Shown: positions 456 to 22,072 of the stretch, one piece after another
Numbering within the stretch: the first letter of the stretch is position 1
Layout: the number at the start of each line of letters is the position of its first letter
Source: a virus
DNA length: 22,072 bases
Virus record (IMG/VR): IMGVR_UViG_3300032050_000898
Location: 1-22,072 of that record
Reading direction: 5' to 3' (one strand)
Notes under the pieces: generated by a model
Database searches by the model: none
What the model was told of the DNA's origin: nothing
Seen by the model: only the letters and a program-made list of their open reading frames with translations
Position numbers and translations under genes: made by a program

Positions 456-1355
456 ATGGTAACTACAGAAGTATTACTTAAAAAATTGAATATTGCTAAC
501 ATAAGAACTGTTAAGCAAATACTAGCAAATAAAGAACTGTCTGAAGAAATTGCAAAAAGAGATGTAATATCTGAAAAACAGTTGGTGGAGGAATATCAAA
601 TTCCTCAGAGCCATTTAAGAAATCTGAAACAAAAAAATAAAATATCTTATTTCTGTACTACAGGTGAATTAAACAAAAGTAGTAGGGGATCTAAAGCTTA
701 TTATTTTGTAGATGAAGTTCAAGAAATATTTGGATACAATATTAAGTATAACAAATCATTAGTATTTAAGCATAACATATTTAATAAGCTAATGGTAGAT
801 TTATCTAAGGAGTTTTGTACAAATAGAGAATCCAGATTATTAGAAATGTTGCTTGTACAAAATCTATCAGTAGAAGAAATTGCTTATGAAGAAGGTGTAG
901 GTGTTGTTAGAGCAAATGATATGATTAATAAAGCTCATAGAAGAGTACTTAGTAAGATTTATAGTCTTAAAAAAATGTTTGCTGAATGGCCTAATGAACT
1001 AGCTTATAAAACTGAAAATGAGTTACTTAAAAAACAAAATACAGAATTATACCATAAGTTTTTAAGAAATAAAGAAAACAAAGAAGCTAAAGATTATTTG
1101 TCTCAAGATGCTGTTCAACATTTTATTAAATATGGATATGATCTTAAAGACTTGGATAAATCTATTATAGATTTTGATTTATCTGTAAGAGCTCTTAATG
1201 GGTTAAAAAGTATAGAGATTGAAAAGCTTGAAGACTTGCTATCTTATAGTAAACATGATCTTTATTGTATAAGGAATATGGGTGATAAGACTATAAGAGA
1301 AATTTGTGATTGGTTAGAAGATACTTATAATTGGAAATTAAAAATTAAGAATTAA
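456..1355 (+). CDS. putative transcription regulator: sigma-region-4-like HTH plus RNAP alpha-CTD-like domain
   Basis: This 299-residue protein is counted from the ATG at 456; the frame opens at a TTG at 402, but that would overlap the upstream gene. Residues about 38-95 look like a helix-turn-helix of the excisionase/MerR kind (EKQLVEEYQIPQSHLRNLKQ). Residues about 123-168 resemble sigma-70 region 4: a helical stretch, then LSVEEIAYEEGVGVVRANDM as the turn and recognition helix. A charged helical linker covers about 180-215. Residues about 240-288 match the RNA polymerase alpha C-terminal domain pattern (LSVRALNGL, then LEDLLSYS, then IRNMGDKTIREI), a helix-hairpin-helix DNA contact unit. 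The protein probably redirects host RNA polymerase to phage promoters. The domain calls rest on pattern recognition only. A sigma4 plus alpha-CTD arrangement is unusual, and it sits at the head of this gene block. Confidence 0.6.
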   Translation: MVTTEVLLKKLNIANIRTVKQILANKELSEEIAKRDVISEKQLVEEYQIPQSHLRNLKQKNKISYFCTTGELNKSSRGSKAYYFVDEVQEIFGYNIKYNKSLVFKHNIFNKLMVDLSKEFCTNRESRLLEMLLVQNLSVEEIAYEEGVGVVRANDMINKAHRRVLSKIYSLKKMFAEWPNELAYKTENELLKKQNTELYHKFLRNKENKEAKDYLSQDAVQHFIKYGYDLKDLDKSIIDFDLSVRALNGLKSIEIEKLEDLLSYSKHDLYCIRNMGDKTIREICDWLEDTYNWKLKIKN

Positions 1356-9158: not shown

Positions 9159-9574
9159 TGGCAAAAATGATTTTTGGAAAAGAAGAAACAAGGAACTTGC
9201 TTATGATGTTGCAATCTGAAGATGCAGACAATCATACTATAGCATTTGAATCCTTGAAAAATGTTGATTTTAATAAGTATATAGGAGAACTATTAGTTCT
9301 CTATAAGTTTGGTGGACACAGTATAGGTAATTGGAATACAAATTGTAAAAATCTTACTGCTAAATTAGCAAAGATTGTAGATCAAACTCCACTCAGTAGT
9401 CCTAAAACTTTAAGTCTGATTACACAACACAAAGGTTCTAAAGCTTCGGTTGAGCTATTTATGGAATTCTTTATTAGAGATATGTCAAGGATGTTAGAGT
9501 CTATTGGCTATCCTACAGATAAATTTGAGATAAATATTAAATTTAAAGATGATGGACAGACAACAGAGTCTTAG
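9158..9574 (+). CDS. unknown protein sharing a domain with the 12007 gene
   Basis: This 138-residue, largely helical protein has an N-terminal unit MLQSEDADNH at residues 17-26. The unit resembles MFKSSDQDNH in the protein at 12007-13371; in the first 19 aligned positions nine are identical, including the S-x-D-x-D-N-H core and the following Ala and Glu. The rest of the unit in both is helical with aromatic and Lys residues. This suggests a shared domain or paralogy. The gene overlaps the upstream stop (TGATG) and the downstream VWA gene by 26 bases, so its expression is tied to that system. No catalytic motif is recognised, though the D/N/H cluster could bind metal. Confidence 0.75.
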   Translation: MAKMIFGKEETRNLLMMLQSEDADNHTIAFESLKNVDFNKYIGELLVLYKFGGHSIGNWNTNCKNLTAKLAKIVDQTPLSSPKTLSLITQHKGSKASVELFMEFFIRDMSRMLESIGYPTDKFEINIKFKDDGQTTES

Positions 9575-10730
9575 TAAAATTGGTAAAGAGTTAATGCTGA
9601 AAGAGCCCTTCTACGGGTTCTTTCTTATTGCTCTAAATAAAATCTGGGGTAATAAGATCTCAACTGCCGGGGTTAGTAAGAATGGTATTAATTATCAGCT
9701 CTTTATTAATACTGAATTTTGGGAAAGTCTTAGTGATAACCACAGACTTGGATTATTGAAACATGAATTGCTACATATTGCATTTGGACATCTCACTACT
9801 TTCTTTAAGTTTAGTGATAAGAGACTTGCAAATGTTGCAATGGACATGGAGATCAATCAGTATATATCTAAAGAATGGCTACCAGAAGGTGGTATTGATA
9901 TAGATGAATATGCTGACTTAAATCTTGATAGAAAAGCAGGTTGTAGATATTACTATGACAAGCTGAAAGAACTTCAGGATAAGAAAAAACAGAATGGTAC
10001 CTGTGGAAATGAGCCTATGGATAAATTATTAGATGCCATAGAAAATGGTGAGACAGATGATCATGCAACATGGGAAGAGTTTGAAGATATGACTGAAGCT
10101 GAGAAAAAGTTAATTGAGAAACAATTACAAAAAGTTCTTGGTGATGCTAAAGATCAGACTATTAAGAAGAAAGGTAATGTTCCTGGAGAGATTGAAGCAG
10201 TAATTATCATTGAAGAAGTTACTAAACAAAAATTTAATTGGCGGGGATATATTAGAAGATTTACAGGAGTAAGTACTAAGGTATTTACCAAAAAGATCAG
10301 AAGAAAAGAAAACCGTAGATTTGAAGCTAATCCAGGTCTGAAAGTAAAAATGAGACAGCATATGTTGTTGGCCATAGATACTTCAGGATCTGTAAGTGAT
10401 GATGAGCTCAAAGAATTCATGAGTGAAATATACCATATTTATAAATGTGGTGTTGATATTACTGTAGTACAGTGTGATACTGTTATTAGATCCATTGAAC
10501 CTTACAAAGGTAAATTTGAGATGGGTGTACAAGGTAGAGGTGGGACTGAGTTTGATCCCGTCCTAGAATATTTTAATGCCAACCTGAAGAAATATACAAG
10601 CCTGGTGTATTTTACTGACGGTGAATGTGGTTATTCTGTAAAACCTAGAGGTAATACTCTATGGGTTTTGTCAGAAAGATCTTATATGAATGAAGAATTA
10701 CCGGGTAAAGTTATTAAATTAGAATTATAA
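9549..10730 (+). CDS. metallopeptidase-like/VWA protein (DUF2201 type)
   Basis: This 393-residue protein joins two domains. The N-terminal part carries a zinc-protease signature, KHELLHIAFGHL (H72, E73, H76), followed by NVAMDMEIN (95-103), where Asp99 may be a third ligand. The C-terminal part is a von Willebrand A domain with an intact MIDAS: DTSGS (277-281), GGTEF with Thr333, and TDGE with Asp357. A charged linker of about 140 residues separates them. The family (metallopeptidase-like plus VWA) usually works with a MoxR AAA+ ATPase, and the next gene is exactly that. The pair likely remodels or processes a target protein; the target is unknown. Start is ATG at 9549 or the adjacent ATG at 9552. 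Confidence 0.9.
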   Translation: MMDRQQSLSKIGKELMLKEPFYGFFLIALNKIWGNKISTAGVSKNGINYQLFINTEFWESLSDNHRLGLLKHELLHIAFGHLTTFFKFSDKRLANVAMDMEINQYISKEWLPEGGIDIDEYADLNLDRKAGCRYYYDKLKELQDKKKQNGTCGNEPMDKLLDAIENGETDDHATWEEFEDMTEAEKKLIEKQLQKVLGDAKDQTIKKKGNVPGEIEAVIIIEEVTKQKFNWRGYIRRFTGVSTKVFTKKIRRKENRRFEANPGLKVKMRQHMLLAIDTSGSVSDDELKEFMSEIYHIYKCGVDITVVQCDTVIRSIEPYKGKFEMGVQGRGGTEFDPVLEYFNANLKKYTSLVYFTDGECGYSVKPRGNTLWVLSERSYMNEELPGKVIKLEL

Positions 10731-10742
10731 AAATTAAAGATT

Positions 10743-11912
10743 ATGAATCAAGTACAATTAAATGTAAATGAGTTAAAGGATTTTATTAAGCATATGGTTA
10801 AGAATAACCAACACATTCAGTCTGAAGGTAAAGTACCTGTGGCTATTAATATTGAAGGTGATGCAGGTTTGGGTAAGACTTCTGCAATCATGCAGTTAGG
10901 TAAAGAATTGCAAATGGATGTTGTAAAGCTTAATTTATCTCAGTTAGAAGAATTAGGTGACTTAGTTGGTTTTCCTGTAAAAGAATTCCAGATTCAAAAT
11001 GCAGAAGGTAAAACTACCTGGATTAATGAATCTCAGATATCTGCAGCAAGTGCAAAAGGATATAAAGTTATAGGTAAGAGAATGTCACATGCTGCTCCTG
11101 AATGGATTCAGGGTAAAGGAGAAGGTGGTTTCTTGATTCTTGATGACTATACTCGTGCTGATGCAAGATTTATGCAAGCAACTATGGAGATTCTAGATAG
11201 ACAAGAATATGTTTCTTGGAAGTTACCTAAGAACTGGCATGTTATCTTGACTACTAATCCAGACAATGGTGACTATAATGTTACTAGTCTTGACGTAGCT
11301 CAGAAGACTAGATTTATCTCTGTAGAGTTAAAATATGATTCTGATGTATGGGCTAAATGGGCAGAGAAAGCAAACATAGATGGTAGATGTATTAACTTTA
11401 TGTTGATGCATCCAGAGTTAGTAACTCAAAGAGTTAATCCAAGAGCTATTACTACTTTCTTTAATGCTATCAGTTCTATTGAGAAGTTTGAAGCAGACCT
11501 GCCTTTGATTCAAATGATTGGTGAGGGATCTGTAGGAGTGGACTTTAGTTCAATGTTTACTATGTTTATTAATAACAAACTTGATAGAATTATCAGTCCA
11601 GTAGATATTCTAACCAAGGATGAGCAGTATGTAATGAACTCTCTTACTAATGCAGTTGGTAAAGATGATGACTTCCGAGCGGATATATCTAGTGTTATTG
11701 CAACAAGGGTGATTAACTATTCTCTTACTTTGGCTGATAAAGGTGCCGTAGGTAAACCAATTATTGATAGAATAGCTAAGCTTACTACTGACTGTGATGC
11801 ATTTACAGATGACCTTAGATATTATATGGTTAAGGAGATTGTTAACGGTAATAAAGTTAAATTCTCACAACTGATGATGAATCAAAACGTGGTGAAGATG
11901 GCTGTTAAGTAA
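10743..11912 (+). CDS. MoxR-type AAA+ ATPase, partner of the VWA protein
   Basis: This 389-residue AAA+ ATPase has Walker A GDAGLGKTS (39-47), Walker B LILDDYTRAD (131-140) and sensor 1 TTNPDN (170-175), with a likely Arg finger near Arg190. The layout is that of MoxR proteins, which act as hexameric chaperones together with VWA proteins (for example RavA-ViaA and CbbQ-CbbO). Here the VWA gene is directly upstream, 12 bases away, so the two should be made together. Residues about 200-389 form a helical lid. A hairpin and a terminator follow the gene, so the accessory run ends here. Its phage role is unknown. Confidence 0.9.
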   Translation: MNQVQLNVNELKDFIKHMVKNNQHIQSEGKVPVAINIEGDAGLGKTSAIMQLGKELQMDVVKLNLSQLEELGDLVGFPVKEFQIQNAEGKTTWINESQISAASAKGYKVIGKRMSHAAPEWIQGKGEGGFLILDDYTRADARFMQATMEILDRQEYVSWKLPKNWHVILTTNPDNGDYNVTSLDVAQKTRFISVELKYDSDVWAKWAEKANIDGRCINFMLMHPELVTQRVNPRAITTFFNAISSIEKFEADLPLIQMIGEGSVGVDFSSMFTMFINNKLDRIISPVDILTKDEQYVMNSLTNAVGKDDDFRADISSVIATRVINYSLTLADKGAVGKPIIDRIAKLTTDCDAFTDDLRYYMVKEIVNGNKVKFSQLMMNQNVVKMAVK

Positions 11913-19582: not shown

Positions 19583-22072
19583 TTATCTTACTTTTTGTGT
19601 TCCTTCCATTGTTTCTAATAATTTTCTAGTATCTCCTGAACCACCTGTAAATCCTACAGTTTTAAATACATCTTTAATAATTTTAGGAGTACCTTCTTTT
19701 TGCCACCAGAATGGGCCCTCATCTCTTTTATAATATGCATCTTCATCACCGGTTAGCCAATTAGTTAAATCCTCTAGAATTTTTATATATAAACTACCTG
19801 TATTTGCAAATAAACTTGTTGACCCACTTAAAAATTTTGCATAGTCATCAAAACCAAAGTTTACATTATATAGTGTTGGTAAAGGTATAAATGTAGTTGT
19901 TTCTGCCATAACACCTAATGTAGTAATTAAAAAATGATTTGCTATGAATCCTGATAAGTTAAATCCTTCAGTACCCCATGCATCCGATCTAGCTTCTAAT
20001 TTTTTAAATCTGTCTGGATCATCTTCATCATAACCAAAGTAAACTAAAGTTATCATTGCCAAGGTCATTACAGATACAAATGTCATAAAGTTTCTTTTGA
20101 ACTGAGCTTTTTCTCTTTTATTCATCCATCTAAAATACTTAGCCTTATGTTTAAAAAATTTAAATAGTACTTTAAATGTTCTTATATAACCACCTATTTC
20201 AGTTGTACCAAGTGCCCAGTCATATCTTGCTCTACCAAAATAACCATCTCCCAATCTTGTATCAAAACCCCATCTATTAACAGCCATTGGTGTAATCCAT
20301 TTTCTCATGAACATGAATGCTCTATAGATAAGATATTTATTTGCTTCAGGCTGTCCAAACTGATCATAGTTACCATATAGTTTTCTTGATAAACCTTGGT
20401 ATCTATTCTTAAACTGCATTAACTTATTACCTTTAGTGATTAAAATCTCTGCGCCATCTTTTAAATCAGAAGCTCTTTCAATTTTATTTCTTTCTTTAAG
20501 TTTTTCTACAGTAGTAGAATATCTTCTAGCTAATGCTTCTAATGTATCTCCTTTCTGATAAATATGATATATTTCTTTATTTCCCCAGTCAGGATCTATA
20601 TTATCTTTAAGTTTAATAATACCATTAGCATCAAGTTCCCATGCATCCATGTAGTTCCTATAGATAACCTTACCATCACTTGTTCTTTCTTCTACTTTCT
20701 GATGTATTAATGTACCTGCAAAAAGCTGTAAGGCTGCTTCCATCTCAGCTCCTTTTCTAAAGTCATTTATCCATTCTCCATTTAATAAATCTTTTAATAA
20801 AGTTCTACTTGGAGCTCGGCCTAATTGTTCTTCTGTTCTAAATACAGCATCCATAGTTTCTATAAGCTGAGCAGTAAGACTTCCATTACCTTTAGCATAA
20901 ATATCTTTAGCACTCCAGTTCATCATAGTTTGTGCAGCCCATACTCTACCTAATGCTAAATCTTGTAGATTAACAAATTCACCTCCGGCAGCTTCAATTA
21001 GATTTTGAACTATCTGACCATATCTGTTTTTTAATGAAGCCGGAACATTTAAACCTAAAGTTGTTGCAGAACCAATTTTCATAAAAGTATTTACTGCTTT
21101 TGTAAGAACTGAATATTGGTTAGCTCCAGAAGAAGTTGTAACACCATAGAGCTCTCTTTCTCCTAAGCCTCTTATGGCTTCAAGTCTACCATATTTTTGA
21201 CCTCTTTTAGTAGCTTTTATATCTTTTCCTTTTCTTTGTTTTGATTGTTTACTATAAGCACCTGTCCCTGGAGGATTTGATTCTAATGTTTTTACAATAG
21301 ACTCATATCTAGGAAGGGCTTCAATCATAGCAGATTGATTTTCAAGTGACATCAAGTATTTACCCATAACCTGAAGTACATCTTTATCTATTTGATCCGC
21401 CTCAAACTTAAACAAACCAGTTACAGGAACATAAGAAATCTCTCTGTTTAATGCATCTGTATTTACATAGCTGTTTTTAGTTGGATCATAGTTAGTTATT
21501 CCACGGTTAAAGTCATCTTGAGCTTTCCAAAAAGTACCTCTTAATATTTCTTTAGCTGAGGCTCCTTTTCTTTTAAGAGCATCAGCATATTTTCCAGATT
21601 GAAAAGCTTGTAAGTTATCATCAGCACCATATCTTGGCATATCCAAATATAATCTAGATTGTTTTGGTTTACCTTTTTGCCAATCTAAGAAGTGTTTCTT
21701 CATAAACTCAATAAACTGATATTCTGCAGTATTATTAGCTTTCATTTGCATGAAATCTTTATTTACATATTTATTAGTCTTAGCACTATTTGGATCACCA
21801 GGTATGTATGGTCTTGGTAAGAACTCATATCTGTTATTAATAACCTTTCCTATATATTTATCTTTACTCTCACCAAAAGGAATACTTCTGTATTCATTCT
21901 TTACTCTATAAGTACTGTGTCTTGCATTTGGTAAACCATTGAATATAACTTCATCACCAGTAGTATTATCAATGACAGTAGTTTTTATGTACATAGATTC
22001 ATCAGAAGGAACTGATACAGAATGAGCATATATTCTTTCATAAACAGTAATTGCTTTACCTTTATCTACATA
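19583..22072 (-). CDS. C-terminal part of a giant virion-type protein with LysM domain (partial)
   Basis: The frame stays open to the right edge, so at least 829 residues of a longer protein are seen; the Met at 21994 is internal. Counted from that Met, residues 1-270 are charged and mixed, 290-430 are helical, and 475-520 form a LysM-type domain (IYHIYQKGDTLEALARRYSTT then VEKLKERN and DGAEILI), a peptidoglycan- or chitin-binding unit. A Trp- and Tyr-rich segment follows, then a hydrophobic stretch at about 636-655 (FMTFVSVMTLAMITLVYFGY) that could be a membrane helix. Large proteins of this kind at the head of the opposite strand in crAss-like phages are virion proteins carried into the cell, some being RNA polymerase subunits. 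No polymerase motif is visible in this part. Confidence 0.8.
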   Translation of the reverse strand, partial: YVDKGKAITVYERIYAHSVSVPSDESMYIKTTVIDNTTGDEVIFNGLPNARHSTYRVKNEYRSIPFGESKDKYIGKVINNRYEFLPRPYIPGDPNSAKTNKYVNKDFMQMKANNTAEYQFIEFMKKHFLDWQKGKPKQSRLYLDMPRYGADDNLQAFQSGKYADALKRKGASAKEILRGTFWKAQDDFNRGITNYDPTKNSYVNTDALNREISYVPVTGLFKFEADQIDKDVLQVMGKYLMSLENQSAMIEALPRYESIVKTLESNPPGTGAYSKQSKQRKGKDIKATKRGQKYGRLEAIRGLGERELYGVTTSSGANQYSVLTKAVNTFMKIGSATTLGLNVPASLKNRYGQIVQNLIEAAGGEFVNLQDLALGRVWAAQTMMNWSAKDIYAKGNGSLTAQLIETMDAVFRTEEQLGRAPSRTLLKDLLNGEWINDFRKGAEMEAALQLFAGTLIHQKVEERTSDGKVIYRNYMDAWELDANGIIKLKDNIDPDWGNKEIYHIYQKGDTLEALARRYSTTVEKLKERNKIERASDLKDGAEILITKGNKLMQFKNRYQGLSRKLYGNYDQFGQPEANKYLIYRAFMFMRKWITPMAVNRWGFDTRLGDGYFGRARYDWALGTTEIGGYIRTFKVLFKFFKHKAKYFRWMNKREKAQFKRNFMTFVSVMTLAMITLVYFGYDEDDPDRFKKLEARSDAWGTEGFNLSGFIANHFLITTLGVMAETTTFIPLPTLYNVNFGFDDYAKFLSGSTSLFANTGSLYIKILEDLTNWLTGDEDAYYKRDEGPFWWQKEGTPKIIKDVFKTVGFTGGSGDTRKLLETMEGTQKVR

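Follow-up and report, generated by a model that had tools for sequence, protein, structure and literature searches.

A 22-kb virus record from IMG/VR (the window, meaning the whole 22,072-nucleotide stretch analysed here) encodes a 299-residue protein in which a domain resembling region 4 of sigma factors (sigma4) is joined by a long helix to a C-terminal domain of the RNA polymerase alpha subunit (alpha-CTD). We propose, with about evenly balanced confidence, that this protein is a phage-encoded accessory transcription factor acting on the host RNA polymerase (RNAP). The proposal draws on the domains themselves, their conserved order, invariant DNA-contacting residues, a crAss-like genomic context and a promoter-like motif on the structural strand of related genomes. 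The features on which the analysis rests are as follows.

456-1355, + strand: gene of the 299-residue sigma4-alphaCTD fusion protein (open reading frame; dN/dS 0.29; order kept in homologues)
456-563, + strand: N-terminal helical region, residues 1-36, with three predicted helices (family-conserved in the alignment; model)
564-731, + strand: probable winged helix-turn-helix (HTH), residues 37-92 (model topology)
759-965, + strand: sigma-region-4-like domain, residues 102-170 (Sigma70_r4 in homologues; Foldseek; RpoD profile matches)
903-1100, + strand: long helix, residues 150-215, probable coiled coil (model; heptad pattern; dN/dS)
1143-1322, + strand: RNA polymerase alpha-CTD, residues 230-289 (PF03118; Foldseek TM 0.92; determinant residues)
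19583-21994, - strand: 803-residue open reading frame, given for context, equivalent to the C-terminal portion of a giant that relatives encode on their structural strand

Comparison with a relative that is 88% identical gave a dN/dS of 0.29 over the whole gene, so purifying selection acts on 456-1355 and the gene is genuinely coding. By part, and on small counts, the same comparison gave 0.10 for the linker at residues 171-229, 0.20 for the alpha-CTD and 0.53 for the sigma4-like domain, which makes 171-229 the most constrained stretch of the protein and sigma4, on few changes, the least constrained. The gene is not a contaminating host gene, as near-identical copies occur on several IMG/VR contigs and the neighbours are phage genes. 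Rfam and tRNA scans of the whole window returned no match.

Residues 230-288 are certainly an alpha-CTD, by both sequence and predicted structure. They match PF03118 with 60.4 bits (E=1.3e-16; Pfam cut-off 23.8), and the top matches in a sequence search of the PDB are RNAP alpha subunits (best E=1e-8). In the AlphaFold2 model, the predicted domain superposes on 1z3e_B with a TM of 0.92 and an rmsd of 1.1 A (Foldseek). The Foldseek matches to alpha-CTDs have a probability of 1.00 and a modest best E-value of 8e-4, probably because each match takes in a single domain of a query that has several. The first-pass annotation had placed an alpha-CTD-like unit at about 240-288; these searches confirm it, with an actual extent of roughly 230-289. 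The N-terminal domain of alpha (alpha-NTD), through which alpha dimerises and binds beta and beta', was not found, the NCBIfam rpoA model covering the C-terminal part only, at 52.8 bits versus 227.8.

For individual residues, E. coli alpha-CTD and sigma70 served as the reference sequences. In alpha-CTD, R265, N268, G296, K298, S299 and E302 (E. coli numbering) are the DNA-binding residues, and positions 259 and 261 belong to the surface contacting sigma. The window protein has the equivalents of R265 (its R245), N268, G296, K298 and E302, with a conservative S299 to T change and a C269 to G change. Across 18 phage and plasmid proteins, the R265, N294 and G296 equivalents are invariant (18/18), K298 is changed to R in Goe8 only and E302 to Q in L141 only, and the N268 equivalent is altered in four. 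The sigma-contact positions 259 and 261 vary across the same set. Judged from these residues, the DNA-binding surface of the alpha-CTD is conserved and the sigma-contacting surface is not.

Taken by itself, the window protein gives a weak sigma4 signal (residues 122-165 match a PHROG sigma factor family with E=0.01), and the domain comes out through its homologues. Sigma70_r4 scores 23.2 bits in L021, a protein 57% identical to that of the window, just below the cut-off of 24.1, and 25.3 bits in a six-frame search; in the same columns it exceeds the cut-off in L040 (26.7 bits) and in the plasmid relative L054 (30.0 bits). Of 198 Bacteroidota genomes searched with a profile of the window's family without the alpha-CTD (A8), 34 gave matches in or around the sigma4 columns of the profile (about 100-203), and the two matched open reading frames that we inspected are RpoD-type sigma factors aligned at region 4. 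The corresponding profile of a second set of proteins, also without the alpha-CTD (A9), found a match in all 198 Bacteroidota genomes. In the first AlphaFold2 model, helices at residues 102-120, 123-133, 139-146 and from 150 onward superpose on the sigma4 structure 3vfz (TMt 0.81, rmsd 1.5 A), and Foldseek also matched the sigma4 structures 2h27 and 3hug. Since homologues and RpoD agree in the same columns, a chance HTH match can be ruled out. The sigma4-like HTH first noticed at about 123-168 thus holds through homologues, profile and model, and extends over roughly 102-170.

The base-reading residues of this domain have diverged in the window's lineage. R584, E585, R588 and Q589 of sigma70 are the residues of region 4.2 that read the -35 bases; at these positions the window protein has V, V, N and D, which makes reading of a standard -35 element unlikely in its lineage. 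R/E/R/Q is kept at these positions in L044, L047 and L141. Sigma regions 2 and 3, which serve core binding and -10 recognition, gave no family match in Pfam or NCBIfam, and the N-terminus is modelled as helices and a winged HTH.

The putative winged HTH at residues 37-92 has a probable assignment based on model topology: strand 37-39, helices 40-46 and 51-59, strands 65-67 and 81-84, and helix 85-92, with pLDDT of about 74-86. Pfam gave no N-terminal HTH match in the window protein, and HTH_17 or MerR models match the equivalent place in the second set of proteins. The long helix linking the sigma4-like domain to the alpha-CTD is conserved and probably forms a coiled coil; in the model it begins as the recognition helix of sigma4, and its best heptad pattern lies around residues 181-210. 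The AlphaFold2 model of the 299-residue protein has a mean pLDDT of 81, and the alignment behind it consisted of the window protein and proteins of related loci, with the plasmid row left out. Overall, the three-unit architecture initially read from the sequence is borne out: Foldseek recovered both the sigma4 and the alpha-CTD folds from the structure prediction, homologues retain the domain order in viral relatives and in a plasmid protein, and an N-terminal HTH is seen, in the model only, at 37-92.

Seven homologues on viral contigs keep all parts in order (L004, L006, L021, L029, L033, L040 and L145), and the identities of the viral relatives to the window protein are, in descending order, 97, 88, 61, 57, 56, 49 and 48%. 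The same domain order occurs in WP_124785686.1 (L054), encoded on a mobilizable plasmid of Chryseobacterium taklimakanense, which is a full-length homologue (28% identity in the alignment; BLASTP E=8e-12). The second set of proteins combines an HTH_17-type head, sigma4, a helical linker and alpha-CTD (L044, L045, L047, L141, L142 and L143); L045 is a doubtful member, since its middle HTH has no Sigma70_r4 match and instead matches Mor with 24.7 bits. Another protein, L048, has an XRE head followed by sigma4 and alpha-CTD, and in L147 and L148 the pair occurs with no other HTH detected. The heads thus vary (HTH_17, XRE or none), and the sigma4-alphaCTD pair recurs in clearly different contexts. 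The first scan of genome contigs gave no match, and in a second contig scan and a phylum search with the alpha-CTD included, matches were dominated by host alpha subunits. Four matches in the phage collection (H1, H3, H6 and H10) are cellular alpha subunits and were rejected as relatives.

Near-complete relatives of the window are 117-136 kb long and carry a replication block, which includes the fusion gene, on one strand and a structural block with giant open reading frames on the other. The portal protein of G001, from a region that lies outside the 22-kb window, matches crAss-like portals. Its best match, at 31.5% identity across 98% of the protein, is the portal of Leptolyngbya phage Lbo-JY46 (L234), which infects a cyanobacterium. 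Giant proteins of 3431-4301 residues in G001, G002, G003 and G307 carry, in a conserved block, the RNAP-type DxDxD motif, which reads D-F-D-G-D in G002 and D-F-D-I-D in the other three. They show distant similarity to giant proteins of crAss-like phages, among them one annotated as a putative RNA polymerase. The region of this giant lies outside the window; in G002 it is encoded at G002:C1:22232-35137 on the - strand. The 803-residue open reading frame of the window shares 41-44% identity with the last ~810 residues of giants 1977-2631 residues long in G001, G003 and G307, and it bears a LysM-like stretch. Elsewhere in the window, adjacent genes at 9549-11912 (+) encode a member of a PHROG "HNH endonuclease" family and an AAA ATPase; by eye the former looks like a VWA or metallopeptidase protein, and the two resemble a MoxR/VWA pair.

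A Bacteroidota host is supported indirectly. The sigma4 profile matches Bacteroidota RpoD, and a full-length homologue resides on a Chryseobacterium plasmid; crAss-like relatives, too, infect Bacteroidota (PMC10136315). Pointing away from this host, the closest portal among named phages is that of a cyanobacterium phage. An alpha-CTD gene gave no match in the Crassvirales genomes cr131_1 and cr55_1, in csAssE-Sib or in Lbo-JY46, so such phages do not generally require the factor.

Structural-strand genes of the relatives are preceded by a recurrent motif, TATATTAT, present in 7/69 upstream regions in G001, 6/70 in G003, 5/59 in G002 and 4/54 in G307. Shuffled sequence gave about one occurrence, and the other strand gave none in G001, G003 and G002 and one in G307. 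The motif was first noticed in G001 and counted afterwards, so that the G001 numbers are partly circular and the test is fairer in G002 and G307; its sites in G001 and G003 are nearly identical, so these two genomes are not independent. Most sites have a TTG some 15-24 bases further upstream. The Bacteroidota promoter consensus has TTTG at -33 and TAnnTTTG at -7, and the TTG...TATATTAT arrangement resembles it. On sequence grounds, we consider this arrangement a candidate late promoter of the relatives. Because the TTG element is constant and the reading residues of sigma4 differ among lineages, its reader is suggested to be the host sigma factor, not the fusion protein.

How could the fusion protein act on the host enzyme? 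The first-pass annotation had proposed that it might replace host subunits. This did not hold up: with alpha-NTD and sigma regions 2 and 3 not found, replacement of alpha or of a whole sigma factor is excluded. The other half of that proposal, bridging of subunits to take over transcription, is plausible and agrees with the reading we favour, as a dimer bearing both modules would offer a simple means of recruiting or redirecting host RNAP. As an accessory factor, the protein would dimerize through its coiled coil, and the pair would present two alpha-CTDs, as the alpha dimer does. The alpha-CTDs would grip A/T-rich upstream DNA, the winged HTH could provide phage-specific anchoring, and the sigma4-like domain would contact RNA polymerase. 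The likeliest place for this contact is the beta-flap site that host sigma4 uses, in the manner of T4 gp33, which mimics sigma4 there (PMC2988020). Alternatively, the sigma4-like domain may act at the promoter as a side-by-side partner. The fusion gene sits among early or replication genes, the class that the injected phage polymerase transcribes in those crAss-like phages that have been studied; the factor would then steer host polymerase towards the structural (late) genes, or off host genes. The virion polymerase of crAss-like phages is responsible for the early and middle genes, and late transcription is considered a likely task of host RNAP (PMC10136315). Counting against a role at host RNAP are the lost -35 residues, the low constraint on sigma4, the constancy of the TTG element where sigma4 reading residues differ, the variability at 259/261 and the four genomes that lack the alpha-CTD.

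Some of the same observations would fit a self-standing DNA-binding repressor or activator, in which the sigma4-like domain and alpha-CTD serve as DNA modules with no contact to RNAP. The winged HTH, the sigma4-type HTH and the alpha-CTD are each able to bind DNA, the DNA residues of the alpha-CTD are conserved and its sigma-contact residues are not, the recurring HTH_17 and XRE heads are ordinary regulator HTHs, and the plasmid copy stands outside any phage takeover. However, such a regulator hardly explains the repeated pairing of two RNAP modules that neighbour each other at the -35/UP region, and L147 and L148 carry the pair with no further detected HTH. We regard this explanation as possible but unlikely.

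Host shut-off is more improbable still. The sigma4-like domain would occupy the beta flap and the free alpha-CTDs would occupy UP elements or regulators that bind alpha-CTD, lowering host transcription. Both sites are known phage targets, the flap through T4 gp33 and alpha-CTD through ADP-ribosylation of Arg265 by T4 (PMC2988020), and the phage protein Rac acts on alpha (PMC7552054), but the winged HTH and long helix would be superfluous and a copy on a mobilizable plasmid would gain nothing. That the factor is a promoter-recognition subunit for a giant crAss-type RNA polymerase encoded by the phage itself is very improbable, since, although relatives encode a giant protein with the DxDxD motif, cr131_1, cr55_1 and csAssE-Sib have no alpha-CTD gene even though such phages carry the giant polymerase, no giant polymerase gene is among the listed neighbours of the plasmid homologue, and sigma4 and alpha-CTD belong to the cellular enzyme.

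An accessory factor acting on host RNAP would bear on the switch from virion to host polymerase in crAss-like phages, for which host RNAP is described only as "likely" to transcribe late genes (PMC10136315). Host-type promoter-contact modules in one conserved factor, together with the structural-strand motif, offer a testable candidate for this switch in one lineage. More broadly, a sigma4-alphaCTD pairing that recurs among phages and on a plasmid would mark out a class of regulators directed at RNAP and now hidden under one-domain annotation. A broader and rather doubtful extension is that these fusions form a widespread class rebuilding the -35/UP contact on one dimeric polypeptide, and that here they bring about the late switch from phage to host polymerase. 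A limited search of the open-access literature found no description of the fusion.

Phage proteins with an alpha-CTD are already annotated, and phage factors acting on host RNAP are already known. Examples carrying the label "RNA polymerase, alpha subunit, C-terminal" include A0A6J5QDR9 and others from uncultured Caudovirales, Rhodococcus phage Finch, and gene 5 of Bacillus phage Goe8, whose alpha-CTD protein, unlike the fusion, has no sigma4 match. The Goe8 protein (L012:1959-2591) is present twice in its record, near both ends. WP_124785686.1, 28% identical and with the same order as the window protein, differs by its plasmid location, and its annotation names the alpha-CTD only ("DNA-directed RNA polymerase subunit alpha C-terminal domain-containing protein"). 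With bacterial alpha (PF03118), the fusion shares the fold (TM 0.92 to 1z3e_B) and the DNA-binding residues, but its alpha-CTD lacks an alpha-NTD and is joined to a sigma4-like domain by a long helix. With sigma-70 region 4 (PF04545) in RpoD of Bacteroidota, it shares fold and profile similarity, but it has no regions 2-3 and in the window's lineage has lost the -35-reading residues. The likeness to T4 gp33, a phage-encoded sigma4 mimic that works on host RNAP with gp55, is a functional analogy; the sequence of gp33 is not recognisably similar to that of sigma, and the protein attaches to the sliding clamp and, unlike the fusion, has no alpha-CTD.
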